Part shown: positions 20,136 to 56,130 of the stretch, one piece after another
Layout: each line of letters begins with the position of its first letter
Numbering within the stretch: position 1 is the stretch's first letter
Assembly: GCF_011038965.1 (NCBI RefSeq)
Contig: NZ_JAAKEB010000005.1
Coordinates: forward strand, 1 to 64,000
Reading direction: 5' to 3'
DNA: 64,000 nt
Source: Adlercreutzia sp. ZJ141
GTDB taxonomy: Bacteria; Actinomycetota; Coriobacteriia; Coriobacteriales; Eggerthellaceae
Notes under the pieces: generated by a model
Seen by the model: the letters and a program-made list of their open reading frames with translations, nothing else
Told to the model about the DNA's origin: nothing
Database searches by the model: none
Program-made: the position numbers and the translations under genes

Positions 20136-20151
20136 GTTAAAAGTGGATGAA
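20136..20151 (+). other. attL core
   Basis: GTTAAAAGTGGATGAA is identical to 56115-56130 and marks the left prophage junction. The host side (AACACTG) joins it to a host motif that also occurs at 13166 and 59418. Confidence 0.8.
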
Positions 20152-21882: not shown

Positions 21883-22158
21883 CTAAGCACTTTCATAGTC
21901 GGTTTTTTTGGGCTCGGTGTAGGTCATCGCCTGCGTACTGTCACCCACACCATCAGTAGTTGGGTCAATAACAACACCAAGAATAGTTAGAACGGAGAAG
22001 ACTGTGCCTACAATGGCAATAATCTGATCTTGCAGCACTGCAAAGGTAAACGTCACGCCAAAAACCGCGCCTACCTGTTGCACAAGCAGCAGTACCGCAG
22101 GAATGATCGCAACCCAAAACGCCTTATTCTTAAGTCGCACGCTCCAATTGATATTCAT
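21883..22158 (-). CDS. phage holin, phiLC3 family
   Basis: The 91-residue protein has the family pattern: INWSVRLKNKAFWVAIIPAVLLLVQ, a second hydrophobic helix (VFSVLTILGVVIDPTTDGVGDS) and a short charged tail. It forms membrane lesions that release the endolysin. It directly precedes the lysin gene, the normal order for a Gram-positive phage lysis cassette. Confidence 0.92.
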   Translation of the reverse strand: MNINWSVRLKNKAFWVAIIPAVLLLVQQVGAVFGVTFTFAVLQDQIIAIVGTVFSVLTILGVVIDPTTDGVGDSTQAMTYTEPKKTDYESA

Positions 22159-22179
22159 TACGTCACCTCTCTTACACGG

Positions 22180-22509
22180 TTATTCGGGGAAACACCCACG
22201 AACCTCTAAATCCTCATTTGCGTGTCGCACCACCGCATGAATATAGTGGTTGCCACCTAGCTTGAAATAGCTGTCAGCGCGCCGGTTAAGCGTGTCAAGC
22301 TCCATGGGTGTAATGTATCCTCGTCCCTCGCACTCTTCGTACTCACGTACGATCGACGCCTTGAGCTGGCACCGTTGGCTTTCCATGAGTGCATCGTGCT
22401 GCTCCTGGAATTCCTTGAGAAACGTTGTTACTTTTCGTGCGAGAAATCCAGCTACGCCAAGTGTCGCTGCGCTGATGACGGCGGGAAGCGCCTGAATGAG
22501 CACGTTCAT
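22180..22509 (-). CDS. small phage membrane protein of the lysis/tail junction
   Basis: The start at MNVLIQALP (22509) has AAAGGTGG 6 nt upstream, whereas the frame further upstream lacks one. One N-terminal membrane helix is followed by an amphipathic helix (LKASIVREYEECEGRGYITPMELDTLNRR). This is a layout I recognise from small proteins encoded beside holins in Gram-positive phages. It could be a holin-like or antiholin protein; its function is unassigned. Confidence 0.65.
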   Translation of the reverse strand: MNVLIQALPAVISAATLGVAGFLARKVTTFLKEFQEQHDALMESQRCQLKASIVREYEECEGRGYITPMELDTLNRRADSYFKLGGNHYIHAVVRHANEDLEVRGCFPE

Positions 22510-22567
22510 ATACCACCACCTTTCGGGTATAAAAAAGCACCGTATCGGTGCTTCGTTAAAACCTCTG

Positions 22568-22681
22568 TCATGCTTGCTGTTTGGGTGCGATAAGAGCTGC
22601 GGTTGCATCCCTCCAACGCTGCGGAACGTCATCAAGCGTCATCTTACCGCGGCGAATGCGGCCCGCGTAGTATTTCGCCAT
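22568..22681 (-). CDS. 37-residue CD1375-like phage protein
   Basis: A short frame below the usual length cut-off begins MAKYYAGRIRRGKMTLDDVP and ends in PKQQA, resembling the CD1375/XkdX-type small proteins found at the ends of phage tail operons. Its ribosome-binding site (GGAGGTGAGTAAGT) is strong and overlaps the 3' end of the upstream gene. The role is unknown. Confidence 0.6.
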   Translation of the reverse strand: MAKYYAGRIRRGKMTLDDVPQRWRDATAALIAPKQQA

Positions 22682-22683
22682 AC

Positions 22684-23010
22684 TTACTCACCTCCCACCA
22701 TCATAAGCGCAAGTTCTTCGATTGCACCGGCTTGCTCTTCAACCTGTAGCTCAAGGTCGCGAACACGGTCATCAACTGTCGGAATAGGAGCGGCCACTTG
22801 TTCGGCGCTATCGAACAACTCATCAAACATTGCGACAACGTCATCGCGCGACAATGTGGTGCGAAGGTAAACCTCTTCGCACTCCCAACAAACAGAACCT
22901 TCGTCATCTTCGCTTTCGGAAACACCCTTGCGAAGCCATACGTCAGCGCGCCCATCAGGCAGCGGCATATACGCCACAGCATCAGGCAGCATGTAATAGA
23001 TTGCCTTCAT
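22684..23010 (-). CDS. hypothetical acidic phage protein
   Basis: The 108-residue acidic protein has an N-terminal beta-rich part and a C-terminal coiled coil (VDDRVRDLELQVEEQAGAIEELALMM). It starts inside the end of the reverse-transcriptase gene (29-bp overlap) with AGAGGA upstream, so it is translationally linked to it. It is not Avd-like: Avd is basic and helical. Many tail operons carry a similar small coiled-coil protein after the fibre gene, possibly a chaperone, but this is a guess. Confidence 0.6.
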   Translation of the reverse strand: MKAIYYMLPDAVAYMPLPDGRADVWLRKGVSESEDDEGSVCWECEEVYLRTTLSRDDVVAMFDELFDSAEQVAAPIPTVDDRVRDLELQVEEQAGAIEELALMMVGGE

Positions 23011-24199
23011 GTTTTGTCCTCTCATATCTGCTTACTTTGCGTGCAGCACGCTTTGAAACCTGGTGGTACTTGTAGCGCCTGCATATAAGCCCCGAATCAG
23101 AATGCACAACCCACCCTTTGTAGGAACAGATGCGCTTTGCCTGTGATAGCGCAAGCGTGCATTGCCCGCGGCAACGCATGGCCATGCGGCGCACACGAAC
23201 AAACACACGCGGGCGAATGGAAACCTTGCCCGATGCATGAATGCGGTAACCCATCATGTCGATCGGCGTTTTGTCATGACGGCATATCTGCCAGTTCGGC
23301 TTGATGGTAAGGCCACGCTGCGCAAACCAACGCACTACTTCGCGTGATGCGATAAGCAGATCGCGTCGTGATGGTGATGTAAGCAAAATATCATCCATAT
23401 ACATTAAGCAGTGCGAAACAAGTCGCTTACGCTTTCCACGCCTTGTTTTGTGTAAGGTTGTTATGTGGCGGTATGCAAAACTCATCACGTACTGCGCTGC
23501 ATATTGGCTCACAAGCGAACCGATCATGAAGCCTTCGTAGCCGTCAACCCGGTGACTATCGAGCAGTGCCCACCACAGCCAAATGATGTCGTCGTTTGCG
23601 ACATCACGTACAAACAGCTCCAAAAAGATATCAAGCCGCATCGACTGATAGCACTTAGTGGTATCTAGAATCACCCAATAGGCGCATGCACGGTGATATC
23701 GCGCACCATGGGCGCACGCCCATCTGTATGCTCTCAAGTCATGTTGTACCCATTTGCGTATCATCTGCATACCGTAGACTTGACCACGGCCCGGAATTGA
23801 CGATGCTTGCTGCGGTACTATCCGGCGCGCCCACACAGCATCACATGACGCAACAGCTATCGCATCTAATACCTGCTGCATTGCCGATTGGCAGCCTATG
23901 AGTCTCACCTTGCCGCTTGACTTATCAACACGCTCGCGCATGCTGACTTTTGGTTCGTTGAGCTTTCGTGAACTTATAATGCTCACCGCATGCTTTGCTA
24001 TCCGTTCAATAGCTGGTTTAAGTAGTGTCTTGTCACAGCTATTGAGAGCTTTTATGTAGTCATCATTGCTCACACCTCCCACACTAGTTGCGAGACGAGC
24101 GAACCTGCGCTTGCGACGGTGCTTCCATACGCACGCTTCCACCCATGGGTAGAGTGTTCGCCAATCTCGCATATCTATATCTTTACAGCTGCGTTTCAT
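22982..24199 (-). CDS. DGR reverse transcriptase
   Basis: The 405-residue reverse transcriptase has catalytic motif A (VILDTTKCYQS, Asp179), the IGSLVSQYAAQYVMS motif (226-240) and the active-site YMDD (267-270). It lies downstream of a template repeat (24358-24459) and a target gene whose 3' end is the variable repeat. In DGRs this enzyme copies TR RNA with errors at adenines and the cDNA replaces VR. It is highly basic, as usual for the family. The start at 24199 has GGAAAGGA 9-11 nt upstream. No accessory Avd gene is visible beside it. Confidence 0.93.
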   Translation of the reverse strand: MKRSCKDIDMRDWRTLYPWVEACVWKHRRKRRFARLATSVGGVSNDDYIKALNSCDKTLLKPAIERIAKHAVSIISSRKLNEPKVSMRERVDKSSGKVRLIGCQSAMQQVLDAIAVASCDAVWARRIVPQQASSIPGRGQVYGMQMIRKWVQHDLRAYRWACAHGARYHRACAYWVILDTTKCYQSMRLDIFLELFVRDVANDDIIWLWWALLDSHRVDGYEGFMIGSLVSQYAAQYVMSFAYRHITTLHKTRRGKRKRLVSHCLMYMDDILLTSPSRRDLLIASREVVRWFAQRGLTIKPNWQICRHDKTPIDMMGYRIHASGKVSIRPRVFVRVRRMAMRCRGQCTLALSQAKRICSYKGWVVHSDSGLICRRYKYHQVSKRAARKVSRYERTKHEGNLLHAA

Positions 24200-24357
24200 A
24201 CAGCGAGTTTCCTTTCCCTGACAGACGTGCGCTTTCGCCGTTACCTACTAACGCACGGGTGTTACCTGCCAATTTCGCCTACCGGCATGGGACGCAAAAG
24301 CGCCTGCACCAGTCTTTAAGGTGCCGCCGCATGGTGTATAGATGTGATTCAGGGATT

Positions 24358-24459
24358 GCCGGGAAACGATGTTCCAGTTCGCGTTACCGAGCCCGTTGTT
24401 GCCGTTACCGCAAGACAAGCCAGCTTGCGCCGCACCGTTGTTCAAGTTGCCGAAGAGCA
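24358..24459 (-). repeat. DGR template repeat (TR)
   Basis: These 102 bp match 24582-24683 except at 14 positions. All 14 are T on the plus strand, that is A in the coding-sense TR. TR has 21 such adenines, most in AAC codons. The unaltered 3' segment ATCGTTTCCCGGC (24358-24370) is the expected initiation-of-mutagenic-homology region. TR lies between the target stop codon and the RT gene. It happens to be within an open 74-codon frame, which is a consequence of TR mimicking VR rather than a gene. Confidence 0.93.
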
Positions 24460-24519
24460 CGAAAGAGGCCATCGCCGTTCACCATACGACCCATTATGCA
24501 GTTAACTCACTTAGTTCTA

Positions 24520-24534
24520 AGGGGCAAAGCCCCT
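24520..24534 (-). other. hairpin just 3' of the target gene
   Basis: AGGGGC-TTT-GCCCCT on the coding strand directly follows the target stop codon, 47 bp past the VR 3' end. Known DGRs need a short GC-rich hairpin or cruciform at this place for efficient retrohoming, and this is its positional equivalent. There is no T-run, so termination is less likely. Confidence 0.6.
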
Positions 24535-26238
24535 CTACGCTGCTAGCGCATCGTATTCACCCCGGTTTCCATTGGGGGAAAGCCGGGAAACGATGTACCA
24601 GTGCGCGTTACCGAGCCCGTAGAGGCCGGAACCGCAAGACAAGCCAGCTGGCGCCGCACCGAGGAACAAGGAGCCGAAGAGCAGTACCTCACGAAGCCCC
24701 GTTGTTGCAGCAGCGTCCGAATAGAATGCGTCTCGCGTGTAGGTGCTCGATGAGCCGCCCGTAACGGTCGGCATTGTCACGCCGCAAGAAAAGCCCTGCT
24801 TCTTTATATAGGCCCATCCTGCGGTAGCAGCCTTCGGAAGACGCAGCCCTGCATCGACGTAATCAGCAGTGACAGACGATGCCTGTTTGGTTGCGTCAGA
24901 ACATGTATACGCCGAATAGGCTTGCGTATCTTCAGAGAAAATAGCATCTCCTATAACCTCATATGCTCCCACCATGTACTCGACGCCCTGAAGCTTGGCC
25001 GGATACTTGCCCGAGGTGCAGGATTTCGGTGAGCCGTCGTTTCCTCGCACGCCGTCCGTTGTTCCCGTAGCCCAATGAAAGCTAGAGATGTAAGTGGTAC
25101 CCGCTGTAGCAGCTCCATTCGCGGCTGTGTCAAACGCTTCCGGTACATCAACGTATACCGCTGTGTAATCAACGCCGCCAACAGTCACGGGCTCCACGGC
25201 AGTAACAATAGCGCCACCCGTGCCTGTAATCGAGTACAAGTAGCTTCTATCAACGTTCGTTGTGTAGTTGCCTATAAGTACACCCATACCAGGCTCAAAT
25301 ACGGCACCCTGCGCAGCGGTGAGCAGCACGCGCTTAACGCCTGTTTCTGCAAGCGCTGCGGGGTACTGATAGTTGTTCTGGCAGCATCCTTGCAAAATAC
25401 CATCAAGCGTGAGTGATGCATACTTAATGTTTGCCATCAGAATAAGCCACGAAGCATCACAAGCGCACTCGCCGCTATATCGTGCACCGTTAACATTTGC
25501 GGCCGAGCGCACCGCATTGTGCGACATCCAGGCCGACGGAACAACGCCCGCACAGCTTGTTAGCGCACCGCTTGTTAGCTTGTGGGCGGCATACTTGGGA
25601 TGCAGTACAAACTCCGATAGTGTGCCGTCGGGCTGCACTGCTTCAACAAGCGGATGCACGTCATAGTCAACCGACTGCTGCGCGGCAATACCGCGCGCAT
25701 AAACATTGTTGTCAGCGTACTCAAAATACCATGGAGCCATCTGCATCACGCCGACGTATACCGACGTATCACGACGTCGAAAGTTGCTGGTAATGCCATC
25801 AATTGCCGTAATCAAGCGCTTGCCAGTTGCATCAAGCGTCCAGTTAACATCGGTAGGAACAAACAGCGGTTCGCCCGCGTAGTCATCTGTATTCGCTACG
25901 GTATCGGTCGATGGCACACACGTCATGCCCACGTTGTCTCCGAAGCGCTCGCCCGTGGAAACAGCGGAAACAGTAGGCTGATAAAACTCCACGCCGCCGC
26001 ACCACGTGGTAATCGTGCGAGTGGCCGCATACCATTCGTTGCACAGTTCGGTCAGCTCACGTGGTGTAGCTCGAGCGGCACCACGGTACAAAAACCAGTC
26101 GCGCATACACTTGCGATACGTTGTAACCGTGCCGTCAAGCTGCGCGAGCACCTGCTGTGTGTGATTTCTTTCCAGCGCATCAGCAATTCGTACCAACGTG
26201 CTCTCACGTGGGAAGTTAGTTACTTCGGTTGTTGCCAT
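24535..26238 (-). CDS. DGR target: diversified tail/receptor-binding protein
   Basis: The 567-residue protein follows the baseplate genes and precedes TR and RT. Its C-terminus (about residues 450-567) has the pattern of a DGR C-type-lectin-fold domain, ending GLGNAHWYIVSR. Residues about 519-552 are encoded by VR. The Asn codons of TR appear here as Ser, Phe, Leu, Ser, Leu, Tyr, unchanged Asn, His and Tyr, and one Gln as Pro. The protein is probably the adhesin at the tail tip that contacts the bacterial surface. The start at 26238 has AGGAGG upstream. Confidence 0.88.
   Translation of the reverse strand: MATTEVTNFPRESTLVRIADALERNHTQQVLAQLDGTVTTYRKCMRDWFLYRGAARATPRELTELCNEWYAATRTITTWCGGVEFYQPTVSAVSTGERFGDNVGMTCVPSTDTVANTDDYAGEPLFVPTDVNWTLDATGKRLITAIDGITSNFRRRDTSVYVGVMQMAPWYFEYADNNVYARGIAAQQSVDYDVHPLVEAVQPDGTLSEFVLHPKYAAHKLTSGALTSCAGVVPSAWMSHNAVRSAANVNGARYSGECACDASWLILMANIKYASLTLDGILQGCCQNNYQYPAALAETGVKRVLLTAAQGAVFEPGMGVLIGNYTTNVDRSYLYSITGTGGAIVTAVEPVTVGGVDYTAVYVDVPEAFDTAANGAATAGTTYISSFHWATGTTDGVRGNDGSPKSCTSGKYPAKLQGVEYMVGAYEVIGDAIFSEDTQAYSAYTCSDATKQASSVTADYVDAGLRLPKAATAGWAYIKKQGFSCGVTMPTVTGGSSSTYTRDAFYSDAAATTGLREVLLFGSLFLGAAPAGLSCGSGLYGLGNAHWYIVSRLSPNGNRGEYDALAA
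24582..24683 (-). repeat. DGR variable repeat (VR)
   Basis: This is the 3' part of the target gene, homologous to TR at an offset of exactly 224 bp with no indels. All 14 differences are at TR adenines. Identity stops within one base of the LFG codons at the 5' side and after CCCGGC at the 3' side, defining the exchanged segment. Confidence 0.93.
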
Positions 26239-26251
26239 GTTTCGTTTCCTC

Positions 26252-26902
26252 CTAATACGAATAGGTTATGTCGAGTCCGCCATCATCAGGGTTTACGCTG
26301 AAACTAACAGCGGAATACTTAGCCATTTCAGATGCAACAGCATTCGCTACCTCATCCGGCACAATCTCTGTCACTGCCTTATCAATAGCCGAATTCGCCG
26401 ATGCAGCTGCCGTGTTAGCTGACTGCGCAGCGGCGTTGGCGTTGGCCGTTGCTTGTTCCATTGCACGCATGTGTTCGTCGTACTTTGGTAGGTAGTCTGT
26501 CGCACCGGCATCCGATATATCGACACCGCGTGCGACGTCGAAGAAAAACGGCTGCGCGCAGGCAATCTCAACCCCGTTACACTTAATCTTGAAGTGAGCA
26601 CGCACACGACCAACAACCGCGCCAAGCACACCCGGCACAAGATAGTCAACACGTCCGTAGAGTGCTTTGGTTATCGTTGCCGCATCAATTACCGACGTCC
26701 CATTAGGTCGTGCCGCACACAGCTCTACAGAACACCCAGTCAAATTAAAGGGGCTTCCGTGGTCAGTTATGGATACCTCTAACTTGAGTGTGTCGGCTTC
26801 ACCTTGCACGACAGCTATTGGTTCGCCGCCATTCGGTCGCCCAAACGTATCTCTGTCCTTGCGCAGGTCACACACAATACGTATTGCTTTCCTGTCCACC
26901 AT
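26252..26902 (-). CDS. BppU-like baseplate upper protein
   Basis: The first about 120 residues (beta-rich, with LKLEVSITDHGSPFNLTGCSVEL) match the BppU N-terminal domain that anchors receptor-binding proteins to the baseplate in lactococcal-type siphophages. An Ala-rich coiled coil (TANANAAAQSANTAAASANSA) and a short C-terminal strand region follow. It sits directly before the diversified protein and probably attaches it to the tail tip. Confidence 0.75.
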   Translation of the reverse strand: MVDRKAIRIVCDLRKDRDTFGRPNGGEPIAVVQGEADTLKLEVSITDHGSPFNLTGCSVELCAARPNGTSVIDAATITKALYGRVDYLVPGVLGAVVGRVRAHFKIKCNGVEIACAQPFFFDVARGVDISDAGATDYLPKYDEHMRAMEQATANANAAAQSANTAAASANSAIDKAVTEIVPDEVANAVASEMAKYSAVSFSVNPDDGGLDITYSY

Positions 26903-27168
26903 TAACTCCTAACCCGCGCTATCACTGCGCTTTCACCGCTTGCCATCGTCAAAACGATCACCCTGTCGCCATTCGAAACGTCACAGCACAGCACACAGTC
27001 GACGTCAACCGTCGCTCCATCGAGCCTAACCTTGCAACGCCCGCCAGAAGGCAAACCGCCAACCGTTCCCCATGAGTGCGACTCATCGCGTACGGGTGCA
27101 GTTATGCGCATCGACTTCGCGAATTCATCGAGCGAGATCATGCCATTTGTCGTTTCGCTATCAACCAC
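26902..27168 (-). CDS. hypothetical small tail protein
   Basis: The 88-residue protein is rich in beta strands (CKVRLDGATVDVDCVL, DRVIVLTMASGESAVIARV) and looks like a small OB-like domain. A GTG start at 27168 is favoured because GGGAGGG lies 8 nt upstream and the start overlaps the upstream stop codon by 8 bp; the next ATG is at 27141. Its position between the hub-like protein and BppU suggests a baseplate part. Confidence 0.6.
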   Translation of the reverse strand: MVDSETTNGMISLDEFAKSMRITAPVRDESHSWGTVGGLPSGGRCKVRLDGATVDVDCVLCCDVSNGDRVIVLTMASGESAVIARVRS

Positions 27169-47384: not shown

Positions 47385-48584
47385 TCATTGCAACACCGCG
47401 CTAAGCTTCGTTGAAGCATCCTGTGCCGCTTGCTCAAAGACGCTTGCAGCGTATGCATCGCGCCCTGGCAGCACGTGTGCATAGATGCGAAGCGTGGTTG
47501 CTTCATCGGCATGTCCTAAGCGCTCACTCACCGTTTTCAGATCAACACCGTGCGTGAGAAGCCATGTGGCATGCGTATGGCGCAGATCATGGAAGGTGAA
47601 GCCTTGTGGCATAGCTAAGTTGCTAGCAAGCGTGGTGAAAGCGCGTGAGACAACGCACGGGCGCTCAAAGCCACCGTCATACGTGACAAGTGGTGAAGCG
47701 GCGCCAAGCGCCCCGCAAAACCGCTCACGCAGCTCAACAAACGCATCAATGGTGTGAATGTCGGTATCGGTAATGGCGATGTTTCTGCACTTGCGGCCTT
47801 TAGTCACATCACGCCTATAAGGCCGCTTTCCTTTTTCCTCAATGACGTTACCGCCAACGTGAATGTATTTTGCCGCCCGGTACACATCACGATCGCGCAC
47901 TGCACAAACCTCGCCAACTCTCATACCGGTGCGAAGCGCCAGCCAGGCGGCGAAGGAATCAAGCGCTTTTCGGTACGAATCAGCATCAAGCTCCTGCGGG
48001 CTCAAAAGCGTTTTCAGTTGCGCATCGAGCACCTGAAAGTCACCAACAGCAAGCGCCTGGGCTTCGTGTCTTTCAGGCGTTGGCTTGTCAACGTTAATAA
48101 GCGGGTTGCTCTCACATATGCCAGCACGAACAAAGAACCTATAAGCACCGCGCAAGAAATCATGAACGTTGCGCACACTGTTGCGGGAAAGCCCCTGGCC
48201 ACCCATTTCTTTTGGCATCATCAAGCGTTGCTCAAAGCGGTTAAAGTCATAAACTCGCAAATCGCGAGCATTGGCGGTTGTGAGGTACTTGCGTACATAG
48301 CGCGTGAACGTACCATAGCTTCGCGTGCTGTTCGGGCTTGCACCATTGCGGCGTCGCATGGCCGCATAATCGTCCAACAAGTCAGCAAGCAAGGCGCTGC
48401 GCACCAACCCATCAGCAGTAAGGTTTGCCGCCCAAGCGTCGGCCATGTCCTGCGCTTCTGCTTCGGTTTTGGCCGTATCAAACTGCTTGTAGGGCTGAAT
48501 CGGTTTGCCGTCAGGTGTGCGCCCAAGATAAGGCCGCGCATACCAAACCCCGTCTTTGCCCTGTTTGACCTTACAGACGGTCAT
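47385..48584 (-). CDS. tyrosine recombinase/integrase (second)
   Basis: The 399-residue protein has an AP2-like arm domain (VWYARPYLGRTPDGKPIQPYKQFDT), a SAM-like core and a full catalytic set: Arg in ALRTGMRVGEVCAV, HDLRHTHATWLL, RLGHADEATTLRIYAHV with the Tyr. It lies inside the early operon, far from the att sites, while another integrase borders attR. It may resolve phage dimers, drive a different site, or be a relic of another element. It overlaps no neighbour but sits 0 bp from the upstream gene. Confidence 0.9.
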   Translation of the reverse strand: MTVCKVKQGKDGVWYARPYLGRTPDGKPIQPYKQFDTAKTEAEAQDMADAWAANLTADGLVRSALLADLLDDYAAMRRRNGASPNSTRSYGTFTRYVRKYLTTANARDLRVYDFNRFEQRLMMPKEMGGQGLSRNSVRNVHDFLRGAYRFFVRAGICESNPLINVDKPTPERHEAQALAVGDFQVLDAQLKTLLSPQELDADSYRKALDSFAAWLALRTGMRVGEVCAVRDRDVYRAAKYIHVGGNVIEEKGKRPYRRDVTKGRKCRNIAITDTDIHTIDAFVELRERFCGALGAASPLVTYDGGFERPCVVSRAFTTLASNLAMPQGFTFHDLRHTHATWLLTHGVDLKTVSERLGHADEATTLRIYAHVLPGRDAYAASVFEQAAQDASTKLSAVLQ

Positions 48585-54157: not shown

Positions 54158-54661
54158 ATGAGCAATATTGCGTACATAGACGGCCAGAATCTCTACATGG
54201 CAACTACCATGGGAATCGACCCGTGGCATATGGACATGCGACGGTTTAGAGTGTACTTGCAACAAAAATACCACGTAGACGAAGCGTACTATTTCATTGG
54301 CGCATTCGACGATTCCAAGATCGACCTGTACAGTTCACTTCAAAAAGCAGGCTATATCGTCATATGGCGCTTGCACGGCATTAAGCTCAAAAGCAACAAG
54401 AAGGGAAACGTGGACGTTGATATCACGTTTCAGATGATGCGAGACCTATACGAGCGCGGGAGCGAGTACGATAAGGTGCTGCTCGTTTCCGGAGATGGCG
54501 ACTACTACAGAGTCGTGGAGTACTTCGATGAGAAAGACAAGCTAGAAAAGGTGCTTTTGCCCAATAGGCAGTTCGCTTCGTCGCTGTACAAGCGGCTAAC
54601 ACGCAGCAAGTGGGCCTACGTCGACACGCCAGATATGCGTGAGAGATTGAAAAACAGATGA
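54158..54661 (+). CDS. NYN/PIN-like nuclease
   Basis: The 167-residue protein has the NYN pattern: YIDGQNLY at the N-terminus, central NVDVDITFQMM and LVSGDGDYYRVVEYF, giving the conserved acidic metal-binding residues. NYN proteins act on RNA. It begins 12 bp after the repressor gene and is probably cotranscribed, so it is expected in the lysogen. Possible roles are defence against other phages or RNA-level control; these are inferred. Confidence 0.82.
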   Translation: MSNIAYIDGQNLYMATTMGIDPWHMDMRRFRVYLQQKYHVDEAYYFIGAFDDSKIDLYSSLQKAGYIVIWRLHGIKLKSNKKGNVDVDITFQMMRDLYERGSEYDKVLLVSGDGDYYRVVEYFDEKDKLEKVLLPNRQFASSLYKRLTRSKWAYVDTPDMRERLKNR

Positions 54662-54712: not shown

Positions 54713-54901
54713 TATGCTAGCAGACCTGCGCAATAAGTCAAACTCTTTTCTCCGTCTGTTTTAGAAAACTTGACAAGCGAAGGCGATGCTGGCTTAAGGA
54801 CGATTCGAACGCAAGAATCCCCGCGCATATGGACGGCAACCCTGCGCGGGGAACAGCAAACACCCCTGCCGACGAATCGGAAAGGCACGGTGAATTGTAA
54901 C

Positions 54902-56044
54902 ATGGCTAATAAGAAACGCCGTCGTTCATGGGGAAGCGTCACAACTATTACCCGCGATAAGCATGTGTTACGGTGGATGGAAAACACCGAAAACGGCCGC
55001 AAACGCCGATCGCGCACAGTTCGCTGTAGCTATCGCGAAGCGTGCCAGGAACTCGCGCGTTTGCAAGTGGCACACGCCGACGATCGCCCGGTGCCAACTG
55101 TCGGAGAATGCCATGACGTCTGGTGGCTGCCCTGGATGCAACGTCGCATAGCCGATGGCCTGACAAAGCAAAAGACATTCGACAACTACGAGCTTAACTG
55201 GAAAACCCACGCGAAACAGCGCTGGGAAAATGTACCGGTCGATTCGGTAAAGCCGGTTGAAGTGCAAAAGTGGCTGCTCGAGTTGCCGCATGCTACAGCG
55301 AATGTTTCTCTAACCATACTCCGACGCATCTGCGACTTTGCCGTACAGTACGAGGTAGTTGAGTCAAACAAGTTCCGTATTTCATACGAGATACCTAAAC
55401 AAAGCGCATACAAGAAACGTGGTGGCCTTCTTACGCTTGAACAAGCCGATGCAGCGCTTTCCGAGCTGCGCGGCTCCTTAGTGGAAGCACCTTTCATCCT
55501 GGCTTGCTTCGGCGGAACACGAACAGGTGAAGCGTGCGGGGTTCGTGCCGACGAAGTCACCTTGATAGAGCTTCATGGTGTGCGTATGGCGTTAGTTCCC
55601 ATTGTTCGCATGGTGGGCGAAAAAGGATGCGATGCGACACCAGACGGCGTGCTTAAGAACGCGCAAAGCGTAAGAACTGCTGCTATACCCGAGCCGTACG
55701 GCACGCGGCTTCATGAGATAACGTGCGCCCTTCTATCCGACGGGCGCGAGTGGCTTGCCGACCGTGGCGACGGGCTCCCGCTGAACACGCATGCACTCAA
55801 TCGCTTGTGGGAGCCTTACTCTTTGGCAGCCGACGTTCCATTCGCCAACTTGCGCAAATCATGGCGCACTTTCGCGCAATACGATTGGGGCATCGACTAC
55901 GACACTTTGGAGCTTTTAATGGGTCATAAGCTTCCCGGAGTAACCGGCACACATTACCTAAAACCATCGCCAGAAAAGCTCGCCGAAGCCCTCGCGAAGG
56001 CGTACGCAAAATCAGGCTTCCATCGCAAAGTTCAAGCAACTTAG
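54902..56044 (+). CDS. int: tyrosine integrase (att-adjacent)
   Basis: The 380-residue phage integrase has an N-terminal arm-binding region (RRRSWGSVTTITRDKHVLRWME), a SAM-like core-binding domain and the catalytic domain (FGGTRTGEACGVR, NLRKSWRTF, LLMGHKLPGVTGTHYLK). The usual His of the HxxR box reads Asn (NLRK), a tolerated variation. It ends 70 bp from the attR core and next to arm-type repeats, so it is the enzyme that integrated this prophage. The start at 54902 has a modest ribosome-binding site. Confidence 0.92.
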   Translation: MANKKRRRSWGSVTTITRDKHVLRWMENTENGRKRRSRTVRCSYREACQELARLQVAHADDRPVPTVGECHDVWWLPWMQRRIADGLTKQKTFDNYELNWKTHAKQRWENVPVDSVKPVEVQKWLLELPHATANVSLTILRRICDFAVQYEVVESNKFRISYEIPKQSAYKKRGGLLTLEQADAALSELRGSLVEAPFILACFGGTRTGEACGVRADEVTLIELHGVRMALVPIVRMVGEKGCDATPDGVLKNAQSVRTAAIPEPYGTRLHEITCALLSDGREWLADRGDGLPLNTHALNRLWEPYSLAADVPFANLRKSWRTFAQYDWGIDYDTLELLMGHKLPGVTGTHYLKPSPEKLAEALAKAYAKSGFHRKVQAT

Positions 56045-56114: not shown

Positions 56115-56130
56115 GTTAAAAGTGGATGAA
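56115..56130 (+). other. attR core
   Basis: GTTAAAAGTGGATGAA is identical to attL (20136-20151). Host sequence resumes with ATTCGCC. The excised chromosome would read ...CACTG, the core, then ATTCGCC.... The following 56131-56302 has no gene and leads to ilvE. Confidence 0.8.

Follow-up and report, generated by a model that had tools for sequence, protein, structure and literature searches.

A diversity-generating retroelement in the tail module of a temperate coriobacterial prophage

Does a prophage of the gut-type anaerobe Adlercreutzia sp. ZJ141 carry the means to rewrite the end of one of its own tail genes? The DNA in question, called the window below, is the first 64,000 nucleotides of contig NZ_JAAKEB010000005.1 (assembly GCF_011038965.1), in which an earlier note based on the sequence alone had described a diversity-generating retroelement (DGR) made up of a reverse transcriptase (RT), a template repeat (TR) and a variable repeat (VR) within a target gene. 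We conclude, at a probability of about 95%, that the locus is an intact DGR of a temperate coriobacterial (Eggerthellaceae) prophage, which would mutate the VR of a tail-tip gene by adenine-mutagenic copying of the TR.

The adenine signature and its reverse transcriptase

The components lie on the minus strand in the order target gene (26238-24535) with the VR at its 3′ end, a 116-bp gap, the TR, a 152-bp spacer and the RT gene (24199-22982).

24535-26238, minus strand: target gene, 567 aa, matching phrog_17147 at E = 7.5e-141
24576-24683, minus strand: VR, 108 bp, within the target gene at its 3′ end and about 85% identical to the TR
24352-24459, minus strand: TR, 108 bp with 23 adenines, the VR being its sole other genomic copy
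24200-24351, minus strand: TR-RT spacer, 152 bp, assigned by position (the median spacing in relatives is 180 bp)
22982-24199, minus strand: DGR reverse transcriptase, 405 aa, with IGSLVSQ and YMDD (...HCLMYMDDIL...)

In the coding sense VR differs from TR at 16 positions, all of which are TR adenines; ten of the changes are A->T and six are A->C. Seven of the 23 adenines are unchanged and there are no mismatches at C, G or T. If 16 mismatches were placed at random in the 108-bp repeat, the probability that all would fall on the 23 adenines is 4.8e-14. The earlier note had claimed the fingerprint of adenine-directed retrohoming on the basis of a 102-bp repeat (VR 24582-24683) with 14 mismatches and seven unchanged adenines. 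The fingerprint, the repeat, the adenine-only pattern and the seven unchanged positions were all borne out, with the repeat now extended to 108 bp and the mismatches to 16. The canonical order of target gene, VR, TR and YMDD RT was recovered from the open reading frames (ORFs) and the repeat comparison, and the interval 22982-26238 given for the system has the end of the RT gene and the start of the target gene as its exact limits. The distance of 224 bp between the repeats is correct when measured start to start, the gap between them being 116 bp.

A whole-genome search for the repeat returned two copies only, VR and TR, and hence there is a single DGR target in this genome. Read in the target frame, the TR adenines fall in nine AAC, two CAA and one ATC codons, in which substitution of A cannot create a stop codon, and the potential diversity is 7e13 DNA variants and 3.8e12 protein variants. 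A 74-aa ORF with an ATG (24248-24472, minus strand) crosses the TR in the frame of the target and is probably a remnant of a duplicated target end.

The RT matched the RVT_1 (E = 1.5e-13) and phrog_1423 (E = 3.5e-45) profiles. DGR RTs are marked by an (I/V/L)GxxxSQ motif together with YxDD (PMC3521204), and the IGSLVSQ and YMDD sequences of the window RT fit the two patterns. Alignment of 12 relatives showed D179 and D269 to be invariant and D270 nearly so. A maximum-likelihood tree was built from RTs of the clade, the BPP-1 RT, cyanobacterial and chlorobial DGR RTs encoded beside Avd genes, and group II RTs; a degraded group II fragment (L073), which had fallen among the relatives on a very long branch, and one other long row were removed. 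All of the DGR RTs split from the group II RTs at 100/100, and within the DGR RTs the window RT fell in a 100/100 subclade of phage RTs. The RTs of Lactobacillus phage LBR48 (L013) and of an Apilactobacillus plasmid-like element (L069) branch beside this DGR clade, but examination of a stretch of each yielded no TR/VR pair.

Searches of the PDB with the single RT or target protein sequence gave no match. Upon use of a profile of 12 RTs the RT chain of 8ub7 was matched at 9e-37, and the best group II RT at 4e-20. The AlphaFold model of the RT (pLDDT 90.3) likewise had 8ub7, a DGR ribonucleoprotein RT, as its top PDB fold match (E = 6e-13). We take 8ub7 to be the BPP-1 RT, its length of 328 aa being equal to that of BPP-1 Brt. 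The earlier note had held that clustering of the RT with group II intron or retron RTs would speak against a DGR. No such clustering was seen: the tree separates the group II RTs, and retron RTs, compared by fold and PDB profile, gave a poorer fold match than 8ub7. An Rfam scan of 22000-27000 gave no match, including none to an intron RNA.

Relatives and the target-site element

Dozens of RT relatives, mostly of 25-38% identity, were found in phages, prophages and IMG/VR contigs by searches that included a collection scan with a 3-row alignment, a 12-row alignment having been too diverse. Their sources were Coriobacteriia (Collinsella, Olsenella and Eggerthellaceae), Bifidobacterium, Bacillota and gut metagenomes, and a related RT was present in 5 of 138 genomes of the bacterial family of the host, the present genome included. 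Nearly all of these RTs have an A-biased TR/VR pair beside them, giving 45 distinct pairs (counting that of the window), in which 663 of 681 mismatches are at A. As the script used to find the repeats favors A-biased repeats by design, its controls matter: it recovered BPP-1 (17/17 mismatches at A) as well as four DGRs on plasmids, with cyanobacterial or chlorobial DGRs among those recovered, and returned nothing at three group II loci. No pair was found for six RT relatives, which were not counted as exceptions, the RT being close to a contig end (L023, L029, L052 and L063) or to the record start (L013) or only partially matched (L064). The target family was present in 33 of the 34 loci examined.

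Near-identical relatives allowed VR variation to be seen. Two IMG/VR contigs that are 99.8% identical across 8 kb (L036 and L037) had all 19 of their variable VR columns at TR adenines, a second pair (L065 and L066) had 14 of 14, and a set of three with identical TRs (L053, L058 and L059) had 4 of 4. The restriction of VR variants to TR adenines that had been predicted for related genomes was thus observed. Judged from their sequences, L036 and L037 would be a naturally captured instance of DGR activity in the clade. The DGR identity of the window locus is supported by independent lines: the adenine bias, the SQ motif with the catalytic residues, the RT tree, the folds of RT and target, the recurrence of TR/VR pairs and VR variation in relatives. 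The parts of the cassette, its adenine-only signature, the assignment of RT and target to their families by sequence and fold, the recurrence of such loci in relatives and the confinement of VR variation to adenines in near-identical relatives are direct observations.

The sequence following the VR contains a further conserved feature, which in the window is composed of a motif and two hairpins.

24556-24563, minus strand: GGGGTGAA motif, first part of the post-VR element
24536-24555, minus strand: post-VR hairpin 1, TACGATGC-GCTA-GCAGCGTA, with one mismatch and a GNNA loop
24520-24534, minus strand: post-VR hairpin 2, AGGGGC-TTT-GCCCCT, immediately 3′ of the target stop codon

The window post-VR region folded better than all 200 shuffles (z = -3.3). 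The consensus in relatives is GGGGTGA, then a short hairpin with varied stems and mostly G-N(1-2)-A loops, and then an AGGGG/CCCCT hairpin with a near-constant stem and a variable loop. GGGTGA was found downstream of the VR in 42 of 45 loci, whether the position was coding or non-coding. Hairpins of the first type, with 23 different stems, stood at the corresponding site in 25 of 38 loci, compared with 8% of shuffles, whereas the GGGG/CCCC hairpin was found downstream of the VR in 43 of 45 loci and downstream of the TR in none (0/45). As the element is kept whether the target stop codon precedes or follows it, selection probably acts on the nucleic acid rather than on the protein. Its presence after the VR and never after the TR suggests that it may mark the recipient site. 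A GC-rich hairpin or cruciform downstream of the VR is a feature of DGRs (PMC3240598), and the window has one at 24520-24555. BPP-1 requires such a hairpin, with any stem sequence but a fixed GRNA loop (PMC3240598). Hairpin 1 matches this pattern and likely corresponds to the target-recognition hairpin of BPP-1; hairpin 2 seems to be an extra feature relative to BPP-1. No description of a two-hairpin tandem after the VR was found in the DGR literature, of which our coverage was incomplete.

Function, activity and accessory genes

The target protein matched PHROG 17147 (function unknown) across nearly its full length, and the only significant PDB fold matches of its model (pLDDT 88.8) were to TaqVP chains (E = 1.4e-4). 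Its gene is preceded by a BppU_N baseplate-type gene as well as by the genes for the tape measure and tail, and is followed by those for holin and endolysin. Given this position and the TaqVP fold match, the target is likely a tail-tip receptor-binding protein, and the tail-tip adhesin proposed in the earlier note is supported to that extent, short of proof. If the analogy with BPP-1 holds, the phage could switch host range or receptor through VR changes. The protein might instead be diversified for a task other than binding a host receptor, such as attachment to mucus or to environmental surfaces, given that the exact ligand is unreadable from sequence and that no solved structure was matched by sequence. 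We consider this improbable, as the slot between the BppU_N gene and the lysis genes is the usual place of receptor-binding proteins and BPP-1 has a similar gene order.

We infer that this copy is active, with BPP-1-like RNA-primed copying and homing leading to a change of host receptor. The proposed mechanism can be divided into three steps: (i) the TR would be transcribed into RNA, (ii) the RT would copy the TR RNA, priming in the spacer and misincorporating at template adenines, and (iii) the mutated cDNA would take the place of the VR, in the 3′-terminal part of the tail-tip gene, leaving the TR unchanged. The spacer is the probable trailing part of the template RNA, a role taken from BPP-1. 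Homing would be guided by the post-VR element, the boundary of the replacement being set by the GC-rich end of the VR together with the downstream hairpin element. This would give a large repertoire of variants of a single surface on a probable receptor-binding protein, with up to 7e13 possible DNA sequences, none of which carries a new stop codon.

Several findings weigh against this picture. There is no A->G substitution among the 16 VR changes, versus about 40% A->G in the whole set of relatives. When between-locus spread is allowed for, such a lack has a P of about 0.007 for one locus and about 0.6 such loci are expected among 45; it is odd, but falls inside that spread. Altered misincorporation by the RT was considered as a cause and dropped as unneeded once the spread was allowed for. 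Variation of this VR was not seen: the sole other public copy (IMGVR_UViG_2889674127_000001) is identical to the prophage across the 10.4 kb compared and looks like the same genome, and no close relatives of the phage were found in IMG/VR, GTDB species genomes, family-level relatives or phage records. Hairpin 2 has a 3-nt TTT loop rather than the GRNA loop required by BPP-1 (PMC3240598); hairpin 1 does have a GNNA loop. Finally, BPP-1 needs the Avd protein, and a recognizable Avd is lacking here.

The identical public copy, the missing A->G changes and the lack of Avd also speak for a DGR that is no longer active, with TR, VR and RT surviving as intact remnants and a VR that has become fixed. 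We think this unlikely. None of RT, target and TR is disrupted and every catalytic residue is present, RT and target are preserved relative to relatives of 20-44% identity (many of which vary), and no later mutation has struck a non-adenine base of TR or VR.

The lack of Avd is a property of the clade and not just of the window. A hidden Markov model (HMM) built from four Avds found none in the window or the relatives, and the same HMM detected a fifth Avd, on which it had not been trained, at 2e-54. The NCBIfam model found none in the genome, although its positive controls gave no match either. Moreover, as the gap between VR and TR is only 116 bp, it has no room for avd. The earlier description of the DGR as complete is thus accurate for target, VR, TR and RT, all of which are intact, but not for avd, which is needed in BPP-1 though lacking throughout this clade. 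An avd gene is common but not universal, being reported to accompany 62% of the DGR RTs of complete genomes (PMC8934634), so its lack does not exclude membership in the DGRs. From the sequences the clade appears to work without a recognizable Avd. We put forward only tentatively, as a proposal we would sooner doubt than rely upon, that this phage clade homes without Avd and that the target is recognized through a two-hairpin DNA element (GGGGTGA, a G-N(1-2)-A-loop hairpin of variable stem, and a fixed-stem AGGGG/CCCCT hairpin of variable loop), the second hairpin of which inverts the BPP-1 rule of free stem and fixed loop.

A candidate for a substitute accessory protein is encoded directly downstream of the RT gene.

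22684-23025, minus strand: orf113, an acidic tail-module protein adjoining the RT

Of 34 related loci, 31 have a member of the orf113 family, which in most cases immediately follows the RT. In 137 genomes of the bacterial family strong matches were found only beside an RT, and eight of the nine strong hits of a motif scan blind to the RT had one. However, in L118 the copy sits behind a target-like tail gene and neither an RT nor a TR/VR pair is present, and more weakly matching relatives (L108-L110) lie behind other tail-fibre genes in two genomes that lack the RT. The protein has an isoelectric point of 4.05 (family median 4.5) and so is acidic, unlike the RNA-binding Avd, and the corresponding ORF in one relative bears an XkdX domain. 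A new Avd-like accessory of the clade was dropped as the leading reading of orf113 because the family is also found behind tail genes without an RT, and we now regard it as quite unlikely. Since its family follows tail genes in phages lacking the RT and since it is acidic, orf113 is probably a tail-module gene that is linked to the cassette without being part of the DGR mechanism, TR and RT sitting between it and the tail-tip gene.

We consider negligible the possibility of a group II intron, retron or defense (DRT) RT that lies near a chance repeat or one made by gene duplication: the matches to group II, UG4 and UG26 profiles are weak (for the group II model, 22 bits where the cut-off is 300), the tree separates the RT from group II RTs, its best matches by profile and by fold are to the BPP-1 DGR RT, and duplication would neither place 16/16 differences at A nor recur beside dozens of relatives.

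The DGR is carried by a prophage of about 36 kb.

20136-56130: host prophage, bounded by 16-bp direct repeats GTTAAAAGTGGATGAA (20136-20151 and 56115-56130)

Its genes include those for an integrase (54770-56044), repressor, terminase, portal, protease, scaffold, capsid, tape measure, holin and endolysin, and it is a temperate, siphophage-like element. The direct repeat adjoins the integrase gene and is the probable att core; the window lacks a tRNA. A second phage-integrase gene lies in mid-prophage (47385-48584, minus strand) and possibly belongs to a nested element or remnant. A gene encoding a nuclease-like NYN-domain protein (54158-54661, plus strand) adjoins the repressor and integrase genes.

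Comparison with known systems

The locus provides a clean and intact example of a DGR from a family of gut-type anaerobes whose phage-host biology is little known. Its broader value lies in the clade, phage DGRs that lack a recognizable Avd and have a conserved post-VR element. If true, homing without Avd and the role of the post-VR element would reveal what can be dispensed with in the BPP-1 mechanism.

DGRs have been published from Eggerthella lenta prophages (clades 2, 3, 4, 7 and 10), and variation of the clade 4 VR was observed in culture (PMC8778435). These share with the present DGR an RT, a TR and a VR in a target gene and are found in prophages of the same bacterial family. In the comparison, which was made from their published description, they differ in having a possible avd between target and TR in most clades (PMC8778435), a gene that does not fit the 116 bp available here.

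The BPP-1 DGR (brt, avd and mtd) has the same order of target with VR, TR and RT, mismatches only at adenines (17/17), a TR-RT spacer of similar length and a GC-rich hairpin after the VR, and provides the best fold match of the RT. Unlike BPP-1, the present DGR lacks Avd, has an RT of 405 rather than 328 aa, a target of another sequence family, two tandem post-VR hairpins rather than one and an unrelated host. The TaqVP protein of Thermus aquaticus (PDB 5vf4), a DGR variable protein of C-type-lectin fold, gave the target model its sole significant match by fold, but the two proteins are only 11-12% identical and the TM-score is 0.48 on the TaqVP length.

The human-gut phage DGRs MT835485, MT835469, MT835477, MT836575 and MT839517 and the IMG/VR relatives share the RT clade, a PHROG 17147-like target and the gene order, and nearly all have the post-VR element, although their RTs are just 25-38% or so identical to that of the window. 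Hence, the DGR of this prophage is genuine and ordinary for its kind, a kind already known, including from Eggerthella prophages, and its less-described feature is the DNA element at the target site.

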